DNA of 64,000 nt from Streptococcus sanguinis SK355 (GTDB lineage: Bacteria > Bacillota > Bacilli > Lactobacillales > Streptococcaceae): NCBI RefSeq assembly GCF_000212855.1, contig NZ_GL890993.1:2159939-2223938 (forward strand), read 5' to 3'. The notes beneath the pieces are model-generated. The model saw nothing but the letters and a program-made list of their open reading frames with translations, ran no database searches and was not told where the DNA came from. Of this stretch, positions 2,586 through 60,232 are shown piece by piece. The first letter of the stretch is position 1. Every line of letters starts with the position of its first letter. Both the position numbers and the translations under genes were made by a program.

Positions 2586-4242
2586 GACTGTTTGCTCCTT
2601 TTCTATTTTTTCCTTTGACAAGATAAATGGCTATTCCAATGACAGTCAACACAAAGATGCCTCCTGCAATAGCAATATCGTAGTCAAAATCTTCCAGACG
2701 AATTGTCTCCTCTGTGTCAGAGTCCTCTGACTCCTCAATCTCTTCTAAAGCACTTGTACCATATTCAGCCACAACCTTATCTTCAGCAATCTTTTGAATT
2801 TCCTTAAGACGCTTAAAGACTGAATCCGCTCGCTCCATAGAATATTTTGTTGCTTTCAGACTGGCTTGTTCTGGCTGTTCAGACAGACTAATCTGCTCCT
2901 TGTCATGAGCTGGCTGTTCCTCCATCCATTGGCTTTCCATACGCTCAATTTCACTGCGAATAGAGCCATCTTCAAATAGTTCTGGGTATTTTGCAACCAA
3001 ATCATTGATGCGGCTAACAATCCAATACCAGGAATTCTCATTGTAGGCTGTGCTCATCTCTTGATAAGGCTGAGAGGTATTGCTGATATTGCCATAGTAA
3101 GGGAGGTAGGGCGCATTGCGCGGACTTCCCATGGCTAGCCAAAGAATTCCTCCTCCAGTAGAGGCAGGTAAATTATCCTTGAGCTGGAAGATGTGCGCCT
3201 CCATGACATTTGGATTGGAGATAGGGTATTTATAAACCGGGTCTGCTTTTGTTTTATCAGGAATCCCTTTTCCGTCTAGCTCCATCTGATCTTGCGGTTT
3301 GAAGTCTGTTCCTTCCAAGCGATTGCGCTGCAAGTTCATGGCATCACGCAGACTAAGCTTGTCGCTGGTTGAGTGCATGAGTTCAAAGTATTCATCATCA
3401 TATTGCACATCTGCATTGGGATCCAGCGCCTTGATACCAGACCAAACCCGAGAGCGGTCAGCTTCAGCCAGCGGCGGATTATAGGACTGAGCTACATGAA
3501 AGCTCCCATTGATTTCCTTATAAGTCCCCGCATCACGCGCTGTTTTCTCAAGATCAGCTGAAAGAATCGTGTTTTCACTATCATTTTTATCTACACTGCC
3601 TAGGAAAAATGTATTGGGAAAAACAGCGTATTTGTCATCCGGAAACTTGATGGCAGCGTATTGGTGGCCAGAAAGGATTTCCATATACCATACACCGGTC
3701 TTGTCAGCAATCGTCACAATATTGCCTTCGGCTGCACCTTTTTCTCTGACAATTTTGGCTAGTAGTTCTACCCCTTCTTTGGCTGTTTTCACATGAGGCA
3801 GGACTACAGAAGTTAAAGCAGATTCAGCGATACCGTCCTTAACATAAGGGTCTACTTTTTGAATATCATCATTAGCACTGGCTGAGACTGTCGCAGATAT
3901 AGAAACGCCTTCCTCATTAAAACCGGCCTCATCGAAAACTCCCTGCTCTGGTGTCACATCCGGTACCGCCGTATACTTGTAGCTAACAGCTGGCAAATCA
4001 AAGCTAAAGCCATTGGTTTCATCTACGAATTGATCACCAGCCTTGTTATACTTGCGCTCCCGTACCACAAAATTCTTGTTGTGGTTGGGTTCCAGGTCCT
4101 CTGTTCGACCATAGAGAGTCGAACCATCCGTCGTCAAATCCTTCCCAATAATAAAGCCTGTACAGGCTGAGACAGCCTGAAAAGGGAAGAGTGTAAGCAG
4201 CATCAAGGCTGGAATAGCCCAACTGAAAAATTTCTTTTTCAT
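2578..4242 (-). CDS. C69-family dipeptidase, membrane-anchored (copy 2)
   Basis: The product has 554 residues. A signal peptide ends in VSACTGF, with Cys27 as the probable N-terminal nucleophile of the C69 peptidase fold. The catalytic domain fills about residues 27-440. After a charged linker there is one transmembrane segment (about 525-545) followed by a basic tail (KGKNRKG), so the enzyme is likely tethered to the outer face of the membrane, unlike the serine-rich tail of copy 1. The family hydrolyses dipeptides, often with broad specificity. The gene is followed with overlap by the PrsW-like gene and then copy 1, which suggests duplication around the PrsW gene. The ribosome-binding site is AAAGGAGAAACTG before ATG. 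A role in peptide use is inferred. Confidence 0.88.
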   Translation of the reverse strand: MKKKFFSWAIPALMLLTLFPFQAVSACTGFIIGKDLTTDGSTLYGRTEDLEPNHNKNFVVRERKYNKAGDQFVDETNGFSFDLPAVSYKYTAVPDVTPEQGVFDEAGFNEEGVSISATVSASANDDIQKVDPYVKDGIAESALTSVVLPHVKTAKEGVELLAKIVREKGAAEGNIVTIADKTGVWYMEILSGHQYAAIKFPDDKYAVFPNTFFLGSVDKNDSENTILSADLEKTARDAGTYKEINGSFHVAQSYNPPLAEADRSRVWSGIKALDPNADVQYDDEYFELMHSTSDKLSLRDAMNLQRNRLEGTDFKPQDQMELDGKGIPDKTKADPVYKYPISNPNVMEAHIFQLKDNLPASTGGGILWLAMGSPRNAPYLPYYGNISNTSQPYQEMSTAYNENSWYWIVSRINDLVAKYPELFEDGSIRSEIERMESQWMEEQPAHDKEQISLSEQPEQASLKATKYSMERADSVFKRLKEIQKIAEDKVVAEYGTSALEEIEESEDSDTEETIRLEDFDYDIAIAGGIFVLTVIGIAIYLVKGKNRKGANSHE

Positions 4243-40933: not shown

Positions 40934-40962
40934 ATACTAGCAGTTCTTTACATATTTGTCAA
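40934..40962 (-). promoter_or_regulatory. Promoter of the pilus operon
   Basis: Minus strand: consensus -35 TTGACA (40957-40962), 17-bp spacer, -10 TAGTAT (40934-40939). It is 41 bp upstream of the first gene and about 40 bp inside the right direct repeat. I saw no dedicated regulator gene in the island. Confidence 0.78.
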
Positions 40963-53967: not shown

Positions 53968-54912
53968 CTATTCTCCCATCTGTCCCTTCAACCAAGACTC
54001 CGCCTCTTCTAAAGGCTGGTCTGTTAGGACATCGGGCTGAATGGCCTCATTCTCATAAAGCTTGCCCGTGCGATCTAGGATACTCGAGGTAGTCAAGAGC
54101 AAAACCGCTCCATCATATAGTTGATAATAATTATTTCCCGTAGTATAGCTTGCCGTTGGCTGACCAAATATTTTAACATTTTCCAGTCCCTTAAAAGCTA
54201 AAACAGTCATCTCTCCTGAGCTACCTGTCTTCCCATTGGTAAGGACAGCTATTGGCACTTTCTTTGCTTTCTCATCAGTCTGCTCCAGACCAAGCTGCTT
54301 AAGAATATCTGACCGAGAAATCGCGCTCTTGCTTCCATTTTTATAAACAAATTGGAAGAGGTCTTCATCAGGCAAAAGAGAGGACAGGCCCGCAATCATC
54401 GGATACATATTCCCGCCGGTATTGTCTCTCAAATCCACAAGAACCGCCTGATAGTCATCCTTTTTAAGAGCTGCTGAAAGTTTCTTGGCATAAGCTTTCG
54501 CTGCCTGTGCATCACCTGTGAAAGCAGGAACTTTTAAATAGAGAACTCCCTCTCGATTCTGCACTTCAGGGTGGTTTTTGCTTTCCGACCAATTTTCGGG
54601 ATTATCCTGTGGACTTAAAAAATAAGAATGCTTCCCGCCAGCCTTTTTGGTTAATTCTTCCAAAACAGGATAGGTATCTTGATAAGTCTTAGCTGATTCA
54701 AGCTTCTCCAAGGCTTTCTTCTTCTCATTCTCCCAGTCTTTGTCAGTATAAAGACCGAAATCAAGTTTTTTCACAACCGAGCGAGCGTAGTCCTGCGGAC
54801 TAGGTGGGAAAAGAAAAATGCCATAGTCTGGACCAAAGTAGGCCAGAAAACCCATTAAAAGAGCAAGCAAAACCAATACTGTTCCCAAGCAACCTAAAAG
54901 GACTTTTTTCAT
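53968..54912 (-). CDS. S41-family protease, nisin-resistance-protein-like (NSR)
   Basis: 314 residues. One N-terminal membrane segment (about 5-26) is followed by an extracellular S41 protease domain. His95 (GGKHSYF) and Ser232 (TGSSGEM) match the His/Ser positions of S. agalactiae NSR (about 320 residues), which cuts the C-terminus of nisin. DLRDNTGGNMYPM is the conserved S41 segment near 160-172. It would degrade an antimicrobial peptide outside the membrane. NSR is usually coupled to a BceAB-type transporter and a two-component system; a transporter is present 2 kb upstream, no regulator pair is. ATG 54912 is preceded by AAAGGTTG. The gene has a BceR-like operator of its own. Confidence 0.83.
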   Translation of the reverse strand: MKKVLLGCLGTVLVLLALLMGFLAYFGPDYGIFLFPPSPQDYARSVVKKLDFGLYTDKDWENEKKKALEKLESAKTYQDTYPVLEELTKKAGGKHSYFLSPQDNPENWSESKNHPEVQNREGVLYLKVPAFTGDAQAAKAYAKKLSAALKKDDYQAVLVDLRDNTGGNMYPMIAGLSSLLPDEDLFQFVYKNGSKSAISRSDILKQLGLEQTDEKAKKVPIAVLTNGKTGSSGEMTVLAFKGLENVKIFGQPTASYTTGNNYYQLYDGAVLLLTTSSILDRTGKLYENEAIQPDVLTDQPLEEAESWLKGQMGE

Positions 54913-54948: not shown

Positions 54949-55022
54949 ATTATAGCAAAATAGAGACACGTTTTCCATGTCTCTACCTTACATTTATCAT
55001 CGTCAATCTTACATTTTTGTAA
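54949..55022 (-). promoter_or_regulatory. Promoter and BceR/NsrR-like operator of the NSR-like gene
   Basis: Minus strand: -10 TATAAT (54949-54954). The palindrome TTACA-TTTT-TGTAA (55009-55022) stands 54 bp upstream, with a half-site TTACA at 54988-54992, 21 bp away. TNACA-N4-TGTAA is the reported BceR-type consensus. No clear -35 box is seen, as expected for activation. A perfect hairpin (54961-54985) lies within the interval. Confidence 0.7.
54961..54985 (-). terminator. Hairpin between operator and -10 of the NSR-like gene
   Basis: Minus strand: TAGAGACA, loop TGGAAAACG, TGTCTCTA, then TTTT. It can terminate transcription from the 55045 gene. It ends just before the TATAAT of the next promoter. 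Confidence 0.6.
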
Positions 55023-55044
55023 GATTATTTTAATCTACAGAAGC

Positions 55045-55314
55045 TTATTTCCATTTCTCACTCTTAGAGAATGCAATCATCAAACCAGACCCAGCTAGAA
55101 CTGCCAGAATAACAAGACAGATATTTTTCAGTGGATAGAGCCAGTCTTTATTTTTCTCATGCCAAGTTGTCTTCCAAAGCCGAACATACTCAGCATGCAT
55201 ATCTTCGGGCTGGTTCAGCTGAATATTAATCACAATCGCCAGTAAAATTAGGGCTATAAAAGCAAGGGCAAAGAGGCAGATTTTCTTCTTTTGGGTTAGG
55301 TTAAGGTTCTTCAT
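55045..55314 (-). CDS. Uncharacterised small membrane protein
   Basis: 89 residues with two transmembrane segments (about 11-29 and 62-82) and a polar loop containing MHAEYVRLWKTTWHEKNKDWL between them. No family recognised. AGAAGGAGAAAAGA precedes the ATG. It follows the APC permease gene by 43 bp, hence may be its cotranscribed partner. Confidence 0.7.
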   Translation of the reverse strand: MKNLNLTQKKKICLFALAFIALILLAIVINIQLNQPEDMHAEYVRLWKTTWHEKNKDWLYPLKNICLVILAVLAGSGLMIAFSKSEKWK

Positions 55315-55357
55315 TCTTTTCTCCTTCTACTTTCTTTTTAATAGCAATACTCTATCC

Positions 55358-56758
55358 CTACTTCTCTTTTACAGATATTTCTGAGTTCCTATAGCCATAG
55401 AAGGCGTAAATGAGACTTCCCAGCGCTAGGGCAATTCCAAAGGCCTGCCAGGTTTCCTTGGTGTACTGAGTCATAAAGGATAGACAGATGACAATGGACA
55501 AGATTGGCGTCAGAGGCACCAGAGGTGTTTTGAATTCTCCAGCTTTGGGCATTCCTTTGTCTTTCCGCAATTTCAAGACAGCGAGTGCCAATAAAATCAG
55601 ATAGGCCAAGGTGCAGATATTGAGGAAAGAGGCGATGCTAGCCAAGGGGAAGATACCAGCACAGACAGCTGAGGCGATCCCTACTAAAATCGTTGCATTC
55701 TTTGGCACCCGACTAGTCTCTGTCAATTTCTTGAAAGAGCGAGGCAAAAGACCATCACGCGCAATACTGTAAATCATCCGCGACAGGGCGTAGGTCATGG
55801 AGATGCAGACTGTAATCAGTGTCAAAATAGCGACGACAGAGATATAGTTAGCTGCCCAGCCAAGTCCGACGCTGCGCAGGGCAAAGGCCACCGCATCTGA
55901 GACATCTAGCTTGCTATAGTGGACAATCCCAGTCAAGACCAAGGTCACCAAAATATAGAGAATAGTCACAATGCTCAAGGATAAGACAATCCCACGCGGA
56001 ACGTTCTTTTGGGGCTCCTTGATTTCATCAACCGCCATGGAAATGGACTCAAAGCCCAGAAAGGCAAAGAACATGAGTGAGGCCCCGGCCATGATACCGA
56101 CCTTGCCGCCATAAATTTCTCCAAAGCCAAAAGGTGCAAAGTTAGACCAATTTTCTGGTTTGATGAAGAAAAATCCTGCAATGATAAAGAGTGCCAAGGC
56201 TGAGAATTTCAAGACCACCAAGGCTGAGTTGAAGCGCAGGGCTGCCTTTGAGTTCAAAAGGACAACCCCTGTAACAAAGACCAAGACCAGAATAGGCAGC
56301 AAATCCACATAAGTACCTTCTTTAGGATTGAAGGTGCCATTCAGAGCTGCCGGCAGCTGGATACCAAAGCCGCTCAGCAAGCCCTTCAGATAAGAGCCCC
56401 AGCCAGAGGCAACACCTGAGATAGCTGTCATGAACTCCATGATGGTCAGCCAACCAGCCAGCCAAGCGGGAAATTCTCCCAGAACCGCATAAATATAACT
56501 ATAGGCTCCGCCATTGGCCGGAATCCGTGAAGCAAACTCAGCATAAAAAAGAGCTGAAATACTCACACAAAGAGCTGAAATGACAATCGAAACGGTCAGA
56601 GCAGGCCCAGCATATTTGGCTGCTCCGGTCCCAGTGATGGTAAAAATCCCAGTTCCTACCATTGCTCCAATACCAAGCAAAATTAAATCAGGAATTTTCA
56701 AATGACGGCGCATGCCCGTTCTATCCTTGCTGGCATCTTTTTTTCTAAAAATATTCAT
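55358..56758 (-). CDS. APC-superfamily amino-acid permease (YfnA/CAT-like)
   Basis: 466 residues with about 12 transmembrane helices. GIGAMVGTGIFTITGTGAAKYAGPA in helix 1 and FFAFLGFESISMAVDEIKEPQKNVPRG between helices 6 and 7 are typical of cationic-amino-acid (CAT) transporters such as YfnA/YhdG. Substrate is not proven. It stands between the BceAB-like transporter genes and the NSR-like gene but is not obviously part of that system. AGGAGAGTAAAAATAG precedes the ATG. Confidence 0.9.
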   Translation of the reverse strand: MNIFRKKDASKDRTGMRRHLKIPDLILLGIGAMVGTGIFTITGTGAAKYAGPALTVSIVISALCVSISALFYAEFASRIPANGGAYSYIYAVLGEFPAWLAGWLTIMEFMTAISGVASGWGSYLKGLLSGFGIQLPAALNGTFNPKEGTYVDLLPILVLVFVTGVVLLNSKAALRFNSALVVLKFSALALFIIAGFFFIKPENWSNFAPFGFGEIYGGKVGIMAGASLMFFAFLGFESISMAVDEIKEPQKNVPRGIVLSLSIVTILYILVTLVLTGIVHYSKLDVSDAVAFALRSVGLGWAANYISVVAILTLITVCISMTYALSRMIYSIARDGLLPRSFKKLTETSRVPKNATILVGIASAVCAGIFPLASIASFLNICTLAYLILLALAVLKLRKDKGMPKAGEFKTPLVPLTPILSIVICLSFMTQYTKETWQAFGIALALGSLIYAFYGYRNSEISVKEK

Positions 56759-56914
56759 CTATTTTTACTCTCCTAATTGCATTAACGCCCTATTTTATCA
56801 TATTTCCTCCCTTTTAGGAATCCTTCTCAGAAAAATACCGAAAAGAAAGGCTGAGAAAAATCTCAGCCTAGGTCTTTAAAATAGATGAAAGATATATAGA
56901 GCCTGTCTCTGCTA

Positions 56915-58903
56915 TCACATAGCCACAATTTTGCGATAGCTGCGAGATGTGATGAGAAAGACACCGACATATACTGCAATAAACAGAGCGCAGACACCCA
57001 GAGTCACCACTAACATAAGTGTGGCATTCAGCACCCCTAAAGCAGATAAAATCAAGCTCAGCATGTGATAGGCAAAAGCCAAATGAAGAAAGGCAAAGAT
57101 TAGGGGTAGGAAGAAGACTATCAGAATCTGCCTACGAATCGTTTTCTTAATTTGTTTTTCGTCCAATCCAACCTTTTGTAAAATAACAAAGCCTTCTCGA
57201 TCTTCATAGCCTTCAGAAATCTGCTTGTAGTAGATGATAAGAACAGTTCCAAGCATAAAAACGATTGATAGGAAAATTCCAATAAAGAACATACCACCTA
57301 GCATTCCTTTTATTTCTTGCTTATCAAAGGCAGTCACCGAACCATAAATAGCTTGATTTTCAGGTAAGGTGGTATTAAAACTGCTTAGCTTTTCTTGGTA
57401 TACTTCTTTGAGTTTTCTCTGTTCTTCTTTTGGAAGCTTAAGATTTAATCCTCCATAATAGTTAACATTGACAGCGTAATCGTTCATCAATGAAGAAAAG
57501 ATTTGACTCGGATTTTTAGCTACCATATAGATTTTTTCAGGCACTATCATATTCATCGGATCGGGTATATTACCGAAAACGAAATCTTCTTTTAATTTTT
57601 TCTTGATTTTTAAATTTTTATCAGCTAGCTGTAAATCTTTTTTGCTGTCTAATTCCAGTCCTTGCTCAAATATGGCTATTTCATCATCTTTAAGCTGAAG
57701 ACTTTGACCCGTCATTCCTTGATAATCACTCTCAGAAATGGCCAAAATATAAAGATTTGGAGTGAATGATTTCTGTCCCTTAGAATAAATATCTAGCTGA
57801 TTACCAGTTCGACCGCTAACTCCTATTGTATAATACTGGTAAATAACTTTTTTACTAATCTGAAGCTGCTGCTCTTGAACAAACTCTGTCAAAGCTTGGT
57901 CCAGCACCTCACCTGTTACTTCTTTTCCTTGGATACTGAAATCATGCGGGAACATGGCATTCTGCATATAATCACCACCAGCATAAATGTTGGCTCCACC
58001 AGATAAGGTAACCAGAACCATTGTCGACAAAATAGAAATCGTCGCTAAACCAATTGCATTTTTCTTCATTCGAAAAATTAGATTAGATACCGAAATCATG
58101 TTATCTGGCTGATAATAAAACGTCTTTCTCTTTTTCAAAAATTGTAAGAAAACAGTCGTTCCTGCATTGAAAAGTAGATAAGTCCCTAGAATAACAAAAA
58201 GTACGGCCACGAAGAAAATGATAATGGCTGCCATCGGATTAGATACACCTAAAGCAAGATAATAGCCAAAAGCGAGAGAAGACATACCAATAATAGTTTG
58301 CAAGAGTAAAAAGCGACTCTTTTTCTCCCCGCTATTTTTTTCTTTGACTAATTGCAGAGCATCAAACTTTCTTAAGTAAAAGCCGTTTTTAATCAGCAAG
58401 CAGAAAAATACAAAAGCATAGAAAATGATAATCAATACCATTACAAAAGGTTGAAATGTTGAAACCAAAACCACCTTGGTACCCATGAGCTTGAGCAGAA
58501 AGGCATAAATCAGCTGGTCAAAGAGAACACCAATAGTCAGCCCCAAGCTTACAGCCACTAGCCCGAAGATTAGTAGCTCAATAAAGGTCATAACAAAGAG
58601 ATGACGCTTATTGAGCCCCAACATACCGTAAAGTCCTAGCTCCTTGGAGCGATTCTTCATGACAAATTGATTGGCATAAAAGACAATAATTCCAGCTGTG
58701 ATGTTCACAATAACAACCCCTAGGACCAAAACAAGGATAACAGAGCTGGCCCCTGTCATTTTGGATAGATTGGGATTAAAAGCCAAGGAGTTGAAAATAT
58801 AAGAAATGGCTACAGCCACACAGGTAGCCAGTGCAAAAGGATAATAGAGACGGCGGTTCTTAATCAGATTGGATACCGCCAATTTTGCTGCTAATCGAAA
58901 CAC
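56915..58903 (-). CDS. BceB-type FtsX-like ABC permease
   Basis: 662 residues. Ten transmembrane segments are expected, and a large extracellular domain (about 305-520) lies between helices 7 and 8. Both features are typical of BceB permeases of peptide-antibiotic detoxification and sensing systems. The N-terminal RLAAKLAVSNLIKNRRLYYPF is characteristic. GTG 58903 is the start; it shares a base with the TAG stop of the ATPase gene (TAGTG), so translation is coupled. In known systems such transporters protect lipid II cycle intermediates from bacitracin, nisin or similar and signal to a BceS-type kinase. Confidence 0.92.
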   Translation of the reverse strand: MFRLAAKLAVSNLIKNRRLYYPFALATCVAVAISYIFNSLAFNPNLSKMTGASSVILVLVLGVVIVNITAGIIVFYANQFVMKNRSKELGLYGMLGLNKRHLFVMTFIELLIFGLVAVSLGLTIGVLFDQLIYAFLLKLMGTKVVLVSTFQPFVMVLIIIFYAFVFFCLLIKNGFYLRKFDALQLVKEKNSGEKKSRFLLLQTIIGMSSLAFGYYLALGVSNPMAAIIIFFVAVLFVILGTYLLFNAGTTVFLQFLKKRKTFYYQPDNMISVSNLIFRMKKNAIGLATISILSTMVLVTLSGGANIYAGGDYMQNAMFPHDFSIQGKEVTGEVLDQALTEFVQEQQLQISKKVIYQYYTIGVSGRTGNQLDIYSKGQKSFTPNLYILAISESDYQGMTGQSLQLKDDEIAIFEQGLELDSKKDLQLADKNLKIKKKLKEDFVFGNIPDPMNMIVPEKIYMVAKNPSQIFSSLMNDYAVNVNYYGGLNLKLPKEEQRKLKEVYQEKLSSFNTTLPENQAIYGSVTAFDKQEIKGMLGGMFFIGIFLSIVFMLGTVLIIYYKQISEGYEDREGFVILQKVGLDEKQIKKTIRRQILIVFFLPLIFAFLHLAFAYHMLSLILSALGVLNATLMLVVTLGVCALFIAVYVGVFLITSRSYRKIVAM

Positions 58904-59664
58904 TAGTCCTTCACCTCACTTGCCATAACTGTCAGAGTATCGGAAATCTCTTGGAACATCTGCCGCTCGGTCTTGTCACCGCGGAAGATTTGATTGTAGA
59001 GAATCCCATCCTTGATAAAGAGCACACGCTTGGCCCGGCTAGCCGCTGCTGTTGAGTGGGTTACCATGAGAATAGTTTGACCGCGGGCATTGATGTCGTC
59101 AAAGACATCCAGCAACGCCGCCGAAGACTTGGAATCCAAGGCTCCCGTCGGCTCATCCGCTAGCAAAATCTCAGGGTCTGTGATGATGGCCCGAGCCACT
59201 GCTACCCGTTGCTTTTGACCCCCGGAAATCTCATAAGGAAACTTCTCTTGGAGTTTGTTAATTCCCAGCTCGTTGCAGGTCGTAACCAGCTTTTGCATCA
59301 TCTCGGTAATGGGGCGGCGAGAGAGGACCAGAGGCAGGAGAATATTATCCTTGACCGACAGGGTATCCAGCAGATTGAAATCCTGAAAGACAAATCCTAA
59401 TTTCTCTCGTCGGAAGCTAGAAGCTTGGCTGTTTTTGATGGTTGCTGTGTCAGTTCCGTTGAGAAAGACGCGGCCCTCAGTCGGCTTGTCCAACATGGCT
59501 AGGATGTTGAGCAGAGTGGATTTACCGGAGCCTGACTCCCCCATGATGGCGACATATTCGCCCTTTTCTACCGTAAAGTGAATGTCCTTCAGTGCCTCCA
59601 CTTGGCTGCCCTGAAAGCGGGTTTTATAAATTTTTTTCACATGCTGTACGTCTAATAATGTCAT
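58903..59664 (-). CDS. BceA-type ABC transporter ATP-binding protein
   Basis: 253 residues. Walker A GESGSGKST, Q-loop VFQDFNLLDTL, signature ISGGQKQRVA, Walker B LLADEPTGALD, H-loop VTHS. The MacB/BceA-type features (LLDTLSVKDNILLPL) and coupling to a BceB-like permease define the function. It powers the FtsX-type permease by ATP hydrolysis on the cytoplasmic side. AGAGGTTCGAGT lies before the ATG. The promoter carries the TTACA-N4-TGTCA operator. Similar pairs occur in pneumococcus and in the NsrFP system. Confidence 0.94.
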   Translation of the reverse strand: MTLLDVQHVKKIYKTRFQGSQVEALKDIHFTVEKGEYVAIMGESGSGKSTLLNILAMLDKPTEGRVFLNGTDTATIKNSQASSFRREKLGFVFQDFNLLDTLSVKDNILLPLVLSRRPITEMMQKLVTTCNELGINKLQEKFPYEISGGQKQRVAVARAIITDPEILLADEPTGALDSKSSAALLDVFDDINARGQTILMVTHSTAAASRAKRVLFIKDGILYNQIFRGDKTERQMFQEISDTLTVMASEVKD

Positions 59665-59699
59665 ACTCGAACCTCTTCTTTATTTAACTTGATACTACT

Positions 59700-59772
59700 A
59701 TCATACCGGAAAGACAGACAAGTTTCCATAACCTAATCTTTCATTTTGCCTGCCAATCTTACATTTTTGTCA
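59700..59772 (-). promoter_or_regulatory. Promoter and BceR-like operator of bceAB
   Basis: Minus strand: -10 TATGAT (59700-59705). The site TTACA-TTTT-TGTCA (59759-59772) lies 53 bp upstream, with a partial copy TTTCA (59739-59743) spaced by 20 bp. There is no good -35 box. The spacing equals that before the small peptide gene. Confidence 0.72.
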
Positions 59773-59842
59773 TCTTGTGCTCCAAGTCGGATAAAGAGAA
59801 AAGTCAACTGACCTTTCTCTTATCCTTGAATAATGGAATCTC

Positions 59843-59974
59843 TCAGTGACTGTACTGTAGCCAGAAATAATATTGACTGGAAGCGCAGCCTAGGCGAGTC
59901 TTCTCGATTTCTTCCTTGGAAATCTTTTGAGCTTTAGGTTTACTTTGACGATGGTTAAAAAGATTGATTTTCAT
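59843..59974 (-). CDS. Putative 43-residue peptide upstream of bceAB
   Basis: ATG 59974 has an excellent ribosome site, AAGGAGGCCCGCT. The product begins MKINLFNHRQSKPKAQ, has a central KISKEEIEKTR helix and ends GCASSQYYFWLQYSH. It is basic at the N-terminus and aromatic at the C-terminus, has no signal peptide, and I do not recognise it. The frame is open far upstream but those codons lack any start signal and overlap the operator. Its own promoter has a BceR-like operator at the same spacing as that of bceAB, so it should be induced together with the transporter. Confidence 0.6.
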   Translation of the reverse strand: MKINLFNHRQSKPKAQKISKEEIEKTRLGCASSQYYFWLQYSH

Positions 59975-60043
59975 AGCGGGCCTCCTTCTTGAAATCTGAT
60001 TTTTAGTTTGGAAGATAGTTATCTTCTTTTTCTTTACACTTAT

Positions 60044-60116
60044 AGGATACCGAATTCCCAGGCTAGCTGCCATAAGATAACCTTTCATTTTAGCCTGTAA
60101 ACTTACATTTTTGTCA
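60044..60116 (-). promoter_or_regulatory. Promoter and BceR-like operator of the small peptide gene
   Basis: Minus strand: -10 TATCCT (60044-60049). TTACA-TTTT-TGTCA (60103-60116) lies 53 bp upstream, and TTTCA (60083-60087) 20 bp from it. About 35 bp are nearly the same as in the bceAB promoter. Confidence 0.7.
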
Positions 60117-60204: not shown

Positions 60205-60232
60205 AAAAAAACCGGAATTTGTTTCCGGTTTT
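60205..60232 (-). terminator. Terminator after the flavin oxidoreductase gene
   Basis: Minus strand: AAAACCGGAA, loop ACAAA, TTCCGGTTTTTTT. It lies about 90 bp beyond the stop at 60323. Confidence 0.85.

Follow-up and report, generated by a model that had tools for sequence, protein, structure and literature searches.

A predicted BceR-type regulon of eight promoters with fixed geometry in Streptococcus sanguinis SK355 includes an NSR-like protease, BceAB transporters and a small conserved gene

A 64,000-nucleotide stretch of the Streptococcus sanguinis SK355 genome (the window; G000:C1:2159939-2223938 of the 2.37-Mb genome) carries an nsr-like protease gene, a BceAB-type transporter and a small gene, each preceded by a candidate operator for a BceR-type regulator. 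In this study, we examined these promoters and their counterparts elsewhere in the genome. All window genes discussed here lie on the minus strand. The nsr-like gene (53968..54912) encodes an S41 protease of 314 aa with an N-terminal hydrophobic stretch (Peptidase_S41, E 2.9e-29). The permease gene bceB1 (56915..58903) encodes a BceAB-type protein of 662 aa with an FtsX match, similar to PsdB (9ugg, E 7.6e-42) and BceB (7tcg, E 1.1e-32), and bceA1 (58903..59664) encodes an ATPase of 253 aa. The small gene (59843..59974) has 43 codons and belongs to a conserved family of 36-43 residues encoded before bceAB. An earlier note had assigned the three promoters to an NSR-like protease, bceAB and an undescribed 43-codon gene. 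This assignment agreed with our searches, in which the Peptidase_S41 protein was most like SaNSR, and the BceB was found together with its ATPase and the 43-codon open reading frame (ORF).

The three 14-mers, here called box A, were found where they had been reported, and all fit the motif TNACA-N4-TGTAA exactly when read on the gene strand (-). The reading is TTACAAAAATGTAA at the nsr promoter (55009..55022) and TGACAAAAATGTAA at both the bceA1 promoter (59759..59772) and the small-gene promoter (60103..60116). The nsr box A is kept in 5/5 S. sanguinis-type genomes (G226, G223, G035, G009 and G230). A second, weaker half-site (box B) had been described 20-21 bp nearer the promoter, and a -10 box 53-54 bp away; both spacings were confirmed. 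Box B lies 21, 20 and 20 bp downstream of box A at nsr (AAATGTAAGGTAGAGACATGG, 54975..54995, 16/21 positions), bceA1 (AAATGAAAGATTAGGTTATGG, 59726..59746) and the small gene (AAATGAAAGGTTATCTTATGG, 60070..60090). The corresponding -10 boxes are TATAAT (54949..54954), TATGAT (59700..59705) and TATCCT (60044..60049), at 54, 53 and 53 bp. Since the two spacings shift together, the distance from the half-site to the -10 box is constant. The hexamers 17 bp before the -10 boxes are TGGAAA (nsr), TGGAAA (bceA1) and TGGCAG (small gene), and these TGGNNN hexamers make weak -35 elements, as for activated promoters.

The frequency of these elements was compared with that in shuffled sequences. The window has four occurrences of TNACANNNNTGTNA, whereas the shuffles averaged 0.92 and 0/100 of them reached 4. 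When a TANNNT box 50-54 bp away was also required, four matches were obtained (the three reported sites and one at 40948) against a shuffle mean of 0.15, and 0/100 shuffles reached 3. The match at 40948 belongs to an ordinary-looking promoter. It was taken as chance, because its TGACA sits in a TTGACA adjoining a TATATC-like box, with no strict-pattern box B.

A whole-genome motif search, which the earlier note had proposed, showed that the same three-block promoter occurs eight times. Box A was searched as TKACAAAAATGTAAGNTT with up to 3 mismatches, and box B was scored out of 21 against the consensus AAATGAAAGGTTAGGTTATGG. Box A was found at 48 places genome-wide against 31 for a reversed control, which indicates that most of the 48 are chance matches. 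Box B scored 16-21/21 at eight of these places and at most 13 at the other 40. Among the ten places scoring at least 11, the -10 box was in register in those eight and in neither of the other two. Box B lies 20-21 bp downstream of box A in 8/8 promoters. Searched alone, it occurs at six genome places, with none in the reversed control, and the strict A+B pattern gave 32 matches in 12/20 relatives' genomes, again with none in the reversed control. The consensus for box B was drawn from seven of the eight sites, the one before a second TraX-like gene being left out; this eighth site and the TraX sites of other species provide independent support for box B.

Besides the three promoters in the window (nsr, bceA1 and the small gene), copies lie before bceA2B2 (L031:15735), before a TraX-like gene (L031:16608), upstream of a large LPXTG adhesin gene (L031:3998), beside gor and a macAB-like operon (L032:9807), and before the second TraX-like gene (G000:C1:2137926). 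All eight are located within ~134 kb (2106773-2240559) of the 2.36-Mb contig. The promoter rule is as follows: box A, box B 20-21 bp on, and a -10 box starting 41 bp after the start of box B, which makes the regulon readable from genome sequence. The eight-promoter regulon with this fixed geometry in S. sanguinis is new as far as our literature searches go.

TraX proteins are acyltransferase-like. The genome contains three TraX-like genes (PF05857). At two of them an A+B promoter is located at distances of 96 and 104 bp from the start; no site was found at the third. The 104-bp promoter is kept in 5/5 S. sanguinis-type genomes. In a hand-picked survey of 20 TraX-like genes in 18 genomes, the site was present upstream of 14 (12 of them at 96-114 bp before the longest ORF start) and absent from six. 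All 14 sites have an [AT]TGNAAG half-site at 20 or 21 bp and a TANNNT box at 53 or 54 bp. TraX-like genes occur in 116/284 Streptococcus genomes, so the link to the regulon concerns some subfamilies only. Literature searches, mostly not at full-text level, found no publication on TraX in a Bce regulon, and the TraX targets are new here as far as these searches go. The promoter rule points to TraX-like membrane proteins as further defence genes.

The nsr-like protein matched SaNSR (4y68) at E 1.8e-65 over residues 27-312, and the alignment pairs KTGSSGEM with KTASSAEM. Membership of the S41 family, a TASSAEM-type segment and closeness to SaNSR mark it as a predicted NSR protease, with nisin cleavage as its putative activity. 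We then compared the locus among relatives. The gene occurs together with its site in 5/5 S. sanguinis-type genomes, where it is 93-94% identical, and in S. anginosus (G108), where it is 52% identical. Both are missing at the same place, the only locus searched, in S. cristatus (G079), the cristatus-type G080, S. gordonii (G098) and S. intermedius (G127). S. cristatus and G080 retain a 29-31-residue remnant of the nsr gene end, without the site. These results show that the nsr gene and the site are present or missing together in ten relatives. In G223 (L280), an in-frame stop interrupts the nsr-like gene and the operator is intact.

BceB1 could be aligned with BceB (7tcg) over residues 8-619, which places it among BceAB-type permeases. 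The window BceB is 97-98% identical to five S. sanguinis records and 72% identical to a sixth; against G226 the identity is 98%, and against G230 it is 71%. BceA1 and BceA2 (L031:14813-15592) of the same genome are identical at 247/248 aligned residues, and the permeases BceB1 and BceB2 are only 46% identical. Near-identical ATPases with divergent permeases suggest gene conversion or a recent copy of bceA alone.

The distribution of the small gene was determined next. A first sequence search found it in 21/59 genomes at E up to 1, only six of them close matches. A 12-row profile found the peptide in 129/284 Streptococcus genomes, at 144 places. At 120 of these places (118 genomes), bceB lies on the same strand within 5 kb downstream, and at 90 of the 120 it is 760-779 bp away, which leaves room for bceA only. 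The remaining 24 places comprise 15 in genomes whose bceB was not among the matches listed and nine others outside this rule. Seven of the nine were viewed: five precede a bceA gene (G122:C4, G008, G098:C1:201048, G210:C11 and G269), one looks broken and one looks like a chance match. Twenty-nine genomes with a listed bceB seemed peptide-free at first. Ten of these were examined (L113-L122), and a divergent peptide was found in eight (L113-L115, L117 and L119-L122); none was seen in L116, and L118 was not readable. A wider profile raised the count to 156/284 Streptococcus genomes. In a sample of the order Lactobacillales, 31/295 genomes matched, all in one genus of 74.

We also examined a collection of named loci, made up of the best 80 of 162 BceB relatives and thus favouring near relatives. 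Five of the 80 were set aside, four for starting too near bceB and one for an N gap, which left 75 evaluable loci. The peptide is encoded upstream of bceB in 72 of these, two of which are cut by a contig end. The three loci without it belong to S. vestibularis, a metagenome bin and S. moroccensis; in these, the site is only 124-140 bp before bceA and there is no room for the small gene. The 14-mer site was present within 2.3 kb upstream in 74/74 of the 80 loci having at least 988 bp upstream. In S. pneumoniae 19F (L195), the small gene lies between the site and bceA. Separate promoter copies precede the small gene and bceA in S. sanguinis-, S. cristatus- and S. anginosus-type loci, and in S. 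gordonii (L171) a promoter copy was found only before the small gene. S. gordonii (L126) also has another family member ahead of bceA2B2; none was seen before bceA2 of the present genome.

The small-protein family is new here, in that literature searches, mostly not at full-text level, found no publication on the small gene. Ribosome profiling of S. pneumoniae D39 is reported to have detected 114 new small ORFs (PMC11701578). The main text of the D39 study (PMC9426450) contains no match for bceA or SPD_0804, and the pneumococcal small gene may still be among the ORFs of its supplementary tables. In R6, the hypothetical protein spr0811 adjoins spr0812 and is listed among penicillin transcript changes (PMC5673960); it is a possible counterpart of the small gene.

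For 70 of the 72 sequences, pN/pS was obtained by summing over pairs of distinct members, and such pairs are not independent. The values were 0.14 for the 43-residue group (n=15), 0.25 for the 42-residue anginosus type (n=2), 0.26 for 37 residues (n=13), 0.25 for 36 residues (n=27) and 0.54 for the 42-residue parasanguinis type (n=13). Between S. sanguinis and S. cristatus, the small gene has pS 0.89 and pN 0.06. The 43-codon gene is thus a real protein gene under purifying selection. Seven residues are invariant in 27 aligned sequences: M1, K17, E24, G29, F37, L39 and Y41. AlphaFold2 predicted a single helix at residues 20-41 (mean pLDDT 95 for 21-40), the N terminus being loose (pLDDT 55 for residues 1-10), with a pTM of 0.43. 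No hydrophobic signal stretch was visible by eye. No Pfam match exceeded the cut-off, the best (E 0.031) being an animal death-domain model that was taken as chance. No NCBIfam match was found for 27/27 members at E up to 1, TIGR01655 (YsaD/YxeA) included.

Because the small protein is tied to the transporter lineage by position and regulation, looks cytoplasmic, and has a precedent in YsaD, a modulating small protein encoded by a first gene, we favour a role as a cytoplasmic helper of the BceAB-BceS complex. Such a helper, a single helix with a basic tail, might tune signalling or transporter stability, and we give this about an even chance. Some points speak against it. BceAB lineages outside this clade manage without the small gene, and the support consists of operon place, conservation and a predicted helix. 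An amphipathic membrane helix was also considered and dropped, since the Eisenberg moment was 0.03-0.16 in four members and not above shuffles (p 0.56-0.98).

The small gene could instead be a leader ORF only, whose translation sets or couples bceA translation and whose peptide has no function. The layout in Mitis-group genomes, where the small-gene stop is 13-15 nt before the bceA start, suits such coupling. However, purifying selection acts on the peptide sequence in every group (pN/pS 0.14-0.54), and the peptide is kept in S. sanguinis-, S. cristatus- and S. anginosus-type loci even though bceA there has its own promoter, since a second site sits between the small gene and bceA. We consider a mere leader unlikely. 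A peptide with a double-glycine-type leader, exported as a signal or bacteriocin-like product, would add a secreted component to the regulon. This reading was favoured at first from ISKEEIEKTRLG, which resembles the leader consensus. The rtg locus exports peptides with double-glycine leaders. An operon of this locus is reported to be raised by overexpression of the pneumococcal regulator RR01 (PMC11034029). However, position -2 in the aligned sequences is L, I, M or F rather than G, the G is followed by C, I, Y, R or L, and three of the seven invariant residues (F37, L39 and Y41) fall within the would-be mature peptide. As the relatives have neither G at -2 nor a conserved Cys, and no GG, GA or GS was found, this reading was dropped as quite improbable. 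Returning to the helper reading, the 36-43-residue protein may act in the Bce sensing complex as a subunit or tuner that is new and confined to Streptococcus, adding one more part to the transporter-kinase-regulator system; S. pneumoniae and many oral streptococci would carry it unnoticed. The TraX-like membrane acyltransferases may likewise be new envelope-modifying effectors of the same regulon. This broader proposal is tentative, with slightly less than an even chance. A conserved small protein before bceA in more than half of the Streptococcus genomes searched is a ready test case for transporter-kinase communication.

The two-component system that would match these promoters had been reported as lying outside the window, and our search for BceRS-type genes found a pair at ~2240996-2242709 (L031:17058-18771), 17 kb beyond it. 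The eight promoters and bceRS lie together within ~136 kb (G000:C1:2106773-2242709) of the 2.36-Mb contig. The response regulator gene (L031:18022-18771), at G000:C1:2241960-2242679, encodes Response_reg and Trans_reg_C domains. Its nearest PDB structures, 5dcm/5dcl (E 2.8e-49), are listed as a PhoB family regulator, which we take to be NsrR. The kinase gene (L031:17058-18038) encodes 326 residues with BceS 8g3a as the closest structure (E 7.8e-38, matched over residues 10-321), and two hydrophobic stretches ~9 residues apart were read by eye at its N terminus. NrdI-like flavodoxin genes are located at L031:16666-17046 and L031:7402-7758, and an ORF like the former directly follows bceS in 5/5 S. 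sanguinis-type genomes.

No site of the same form was seen before bceRS in the plus-strand reading of L031, nor on either strand in the 1.2-1.4 kb before bceRS of the five S. sanguinis-type genomes. The link between the pair and the site comes from other species, because the orthologous regulator and kinase there adjoin the site, the small gene and bceA. In 7/7 parasanguinis-type loci (L113-L115 and L119-L122), L128 and L132, this arrangement directly follows orthologues of both genes, with identities of 81-86% for the regulator and 57-61% for the kinase. Closely related regulators can cross-bind, as reported for PsdR/ApsR in L. paracasei (PMC10858260), but since orthologues of this very pair adjoin the same site elsewhere, it is highly improbable that another OmpR-type regulator serves the promoters in place of the pair 17 kb away. 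The eight promoters, the genes for an NsrR-like regulator and a BceS-like kinase, their linkage in relatives and the co-occurrence of nsr with its site give good sequence-based support to the shared BceR-type regulon that had been proposed. The three window promoters very probably form part of a single regulon under the BceRS system of the strain itself.

For Firmicutes, Bce modules are a main line of inducible defence against bacitracin, nisin and related peptides, and the communication between transporter and kinase in these modules is still debated. In the mechanism that we propose, BceAB, held together with the intramembrane-sensing kinase BceS, would notice peptide antibiotics bound to lipid II cycle intermediates, and BceS would then phosphorylate the NsrR/BceR-type regulator. 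The sensing by BceAB and its action on BceS are taken from published reports (PMC9020739, PMC11502775, PMC7438565). The phosphorylated regulator may bind box A and then box B, about two helical turns on. Box B abuts the weak -35 (TGGNNN), where the regulator would recruit polymerase. This geometry fits two regulator dimers on boxes two turns apart, with the inner dimer next to the polymerase. The set switched on would consist of an NSR-type protease, two BceAB transporters, two TraX-like membrane proteins and the 43-residue protein. Binding and induction of this set by BceAB-BceS-BceR are inferred.

In B. subtilis, BceR-type promoters have a main site and a secondary site at a fixed distance. 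The present system resembles B. subtilis BceRSAB in this pairing of sites, and BceS and BceB of that system are the nearest and second nearest solved structures of the kinase and permease. It differs in the small-protein family, which was found in one of the 74 genera sampled from Lactobacillales, Bacillus being outside the sample. The closest parallel in gene content is S. agalactiae BceRS (NsrRK/NsrFP/NSR), where a BceR-type regulator, BceAB and an extracellular protease are reported in one regulon (PMC11502775). That regulon is described as having nine genes, including bceRS itself and adjacent genes (PMC11502775). In S. sanguinis, by contrast, the units are separate and spread over 134 kb, no site of the same form was found ahead of bceRS, and the set holds two copies of BceAB together with TraX-like genes and the small gene. 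As in the present genome, the transporter and two-component genes of S. pneumoniae TCS01 (BceRS)/BceAB are apart, with the same type of 14-mer; RR01 is reported to bind the bceAB promoter, and the TNACA-N4-TGTAA consensus is quoted there (PMC9020739). The small gene is not named in the sections of the TCS01 reports consulted (PMC9020739, PMC11034029). L. lactis YsaDCB/TCS-G also has a small accessory gene at the head of a BceAB-type operon, and its product YsaD reportedly modulates the relay of the signal and is not needed for resistance (PMC7438565). YsaD is a secreted peptide of TIGR01655, whereas the streptococcal protein matches no NCBIfam model and shows no signal sequence by eye; the two are unrelated. 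A protease and BceAB under one BceR-type regulator are already known from S. agalactiae, and TCS01, bceAB and the 14-mer from pneumococcus.

Several observations weigh against a regulon of this breadth. Box B at nsr is weaker (16/21), and the box B scores of seven sites are partly by construction because the consensus was built from them. The strict A+B pattern is missing from 8/20 relatives' genomes, including S. pneumoniae-like ones, where box B differs. Two of the eight promoters lack a clean target, one being 770 bp before the adhesin gene and the other antisense into gor. In addition, pneumococcal tandem mass tag (TMT) proteomics is reported to have found only BceAB to be TCS01-dependent on bacitracin, which indicates that a wide regulon is not general; it covered about half of the proteome and could miss a 36-residue protein (PMC9020739).

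The adhesin promoter lies at L031:3229-4011 (G000:C1 ~2227167-2227949). The LPXTG adhesin gene, which has SpaA/CnaB-like repeats, starts 770 bp further on and runs into the window (61674 onward); only a 12-codon ORF was seen near the promoter. A 70-bp stretch there is 86% identical to the promoter of the small gene, and the strict pattern gave no such fifth match in the five S. sanguinis-type genomes. Because of this likeness and the lack of a counterpart in those genomes, the adhesin promoter may have been copied. Overexpression of pneumococcal RR01 is reported to raise the adhesin gene pavB along with the rtg operon (PMC11034029), a parallel to the adhesin gene here.

The gor-side promoter (L032:9807) has counterparts in G226 (L296:3258) and S. 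gordonii (L294:2531) and is thus kept in both species. It points antisense into the 3' end of gor, with the macAB-like efflux operon 1.7 kb on, and could give an antisense leader or a short RNA. The plus-strand gene at L032:8147-9691 was considered as a transposase, which was rejected on its Pfam match to pyridine nucleotide-disulphide reductase; we call it gor because its C terminus resembles that of glutathione reductase. In the interval between the small gene and the bceA1 promoter, a strong RNA hairpin without a U tract was predicted on the minus strand (59789..59825; -28.6 kcal/mol and z -3.79 for a folded stretch of 91 nt). Repeats that resemble terminators, AAAACCGGAAACAAA.TCCGGTTTT flanked by TTTAGGAAATA, are nearly identical at three places in this region: 60207-60232 of the window and ~3507-3531 and ~4080-4105 of L031.

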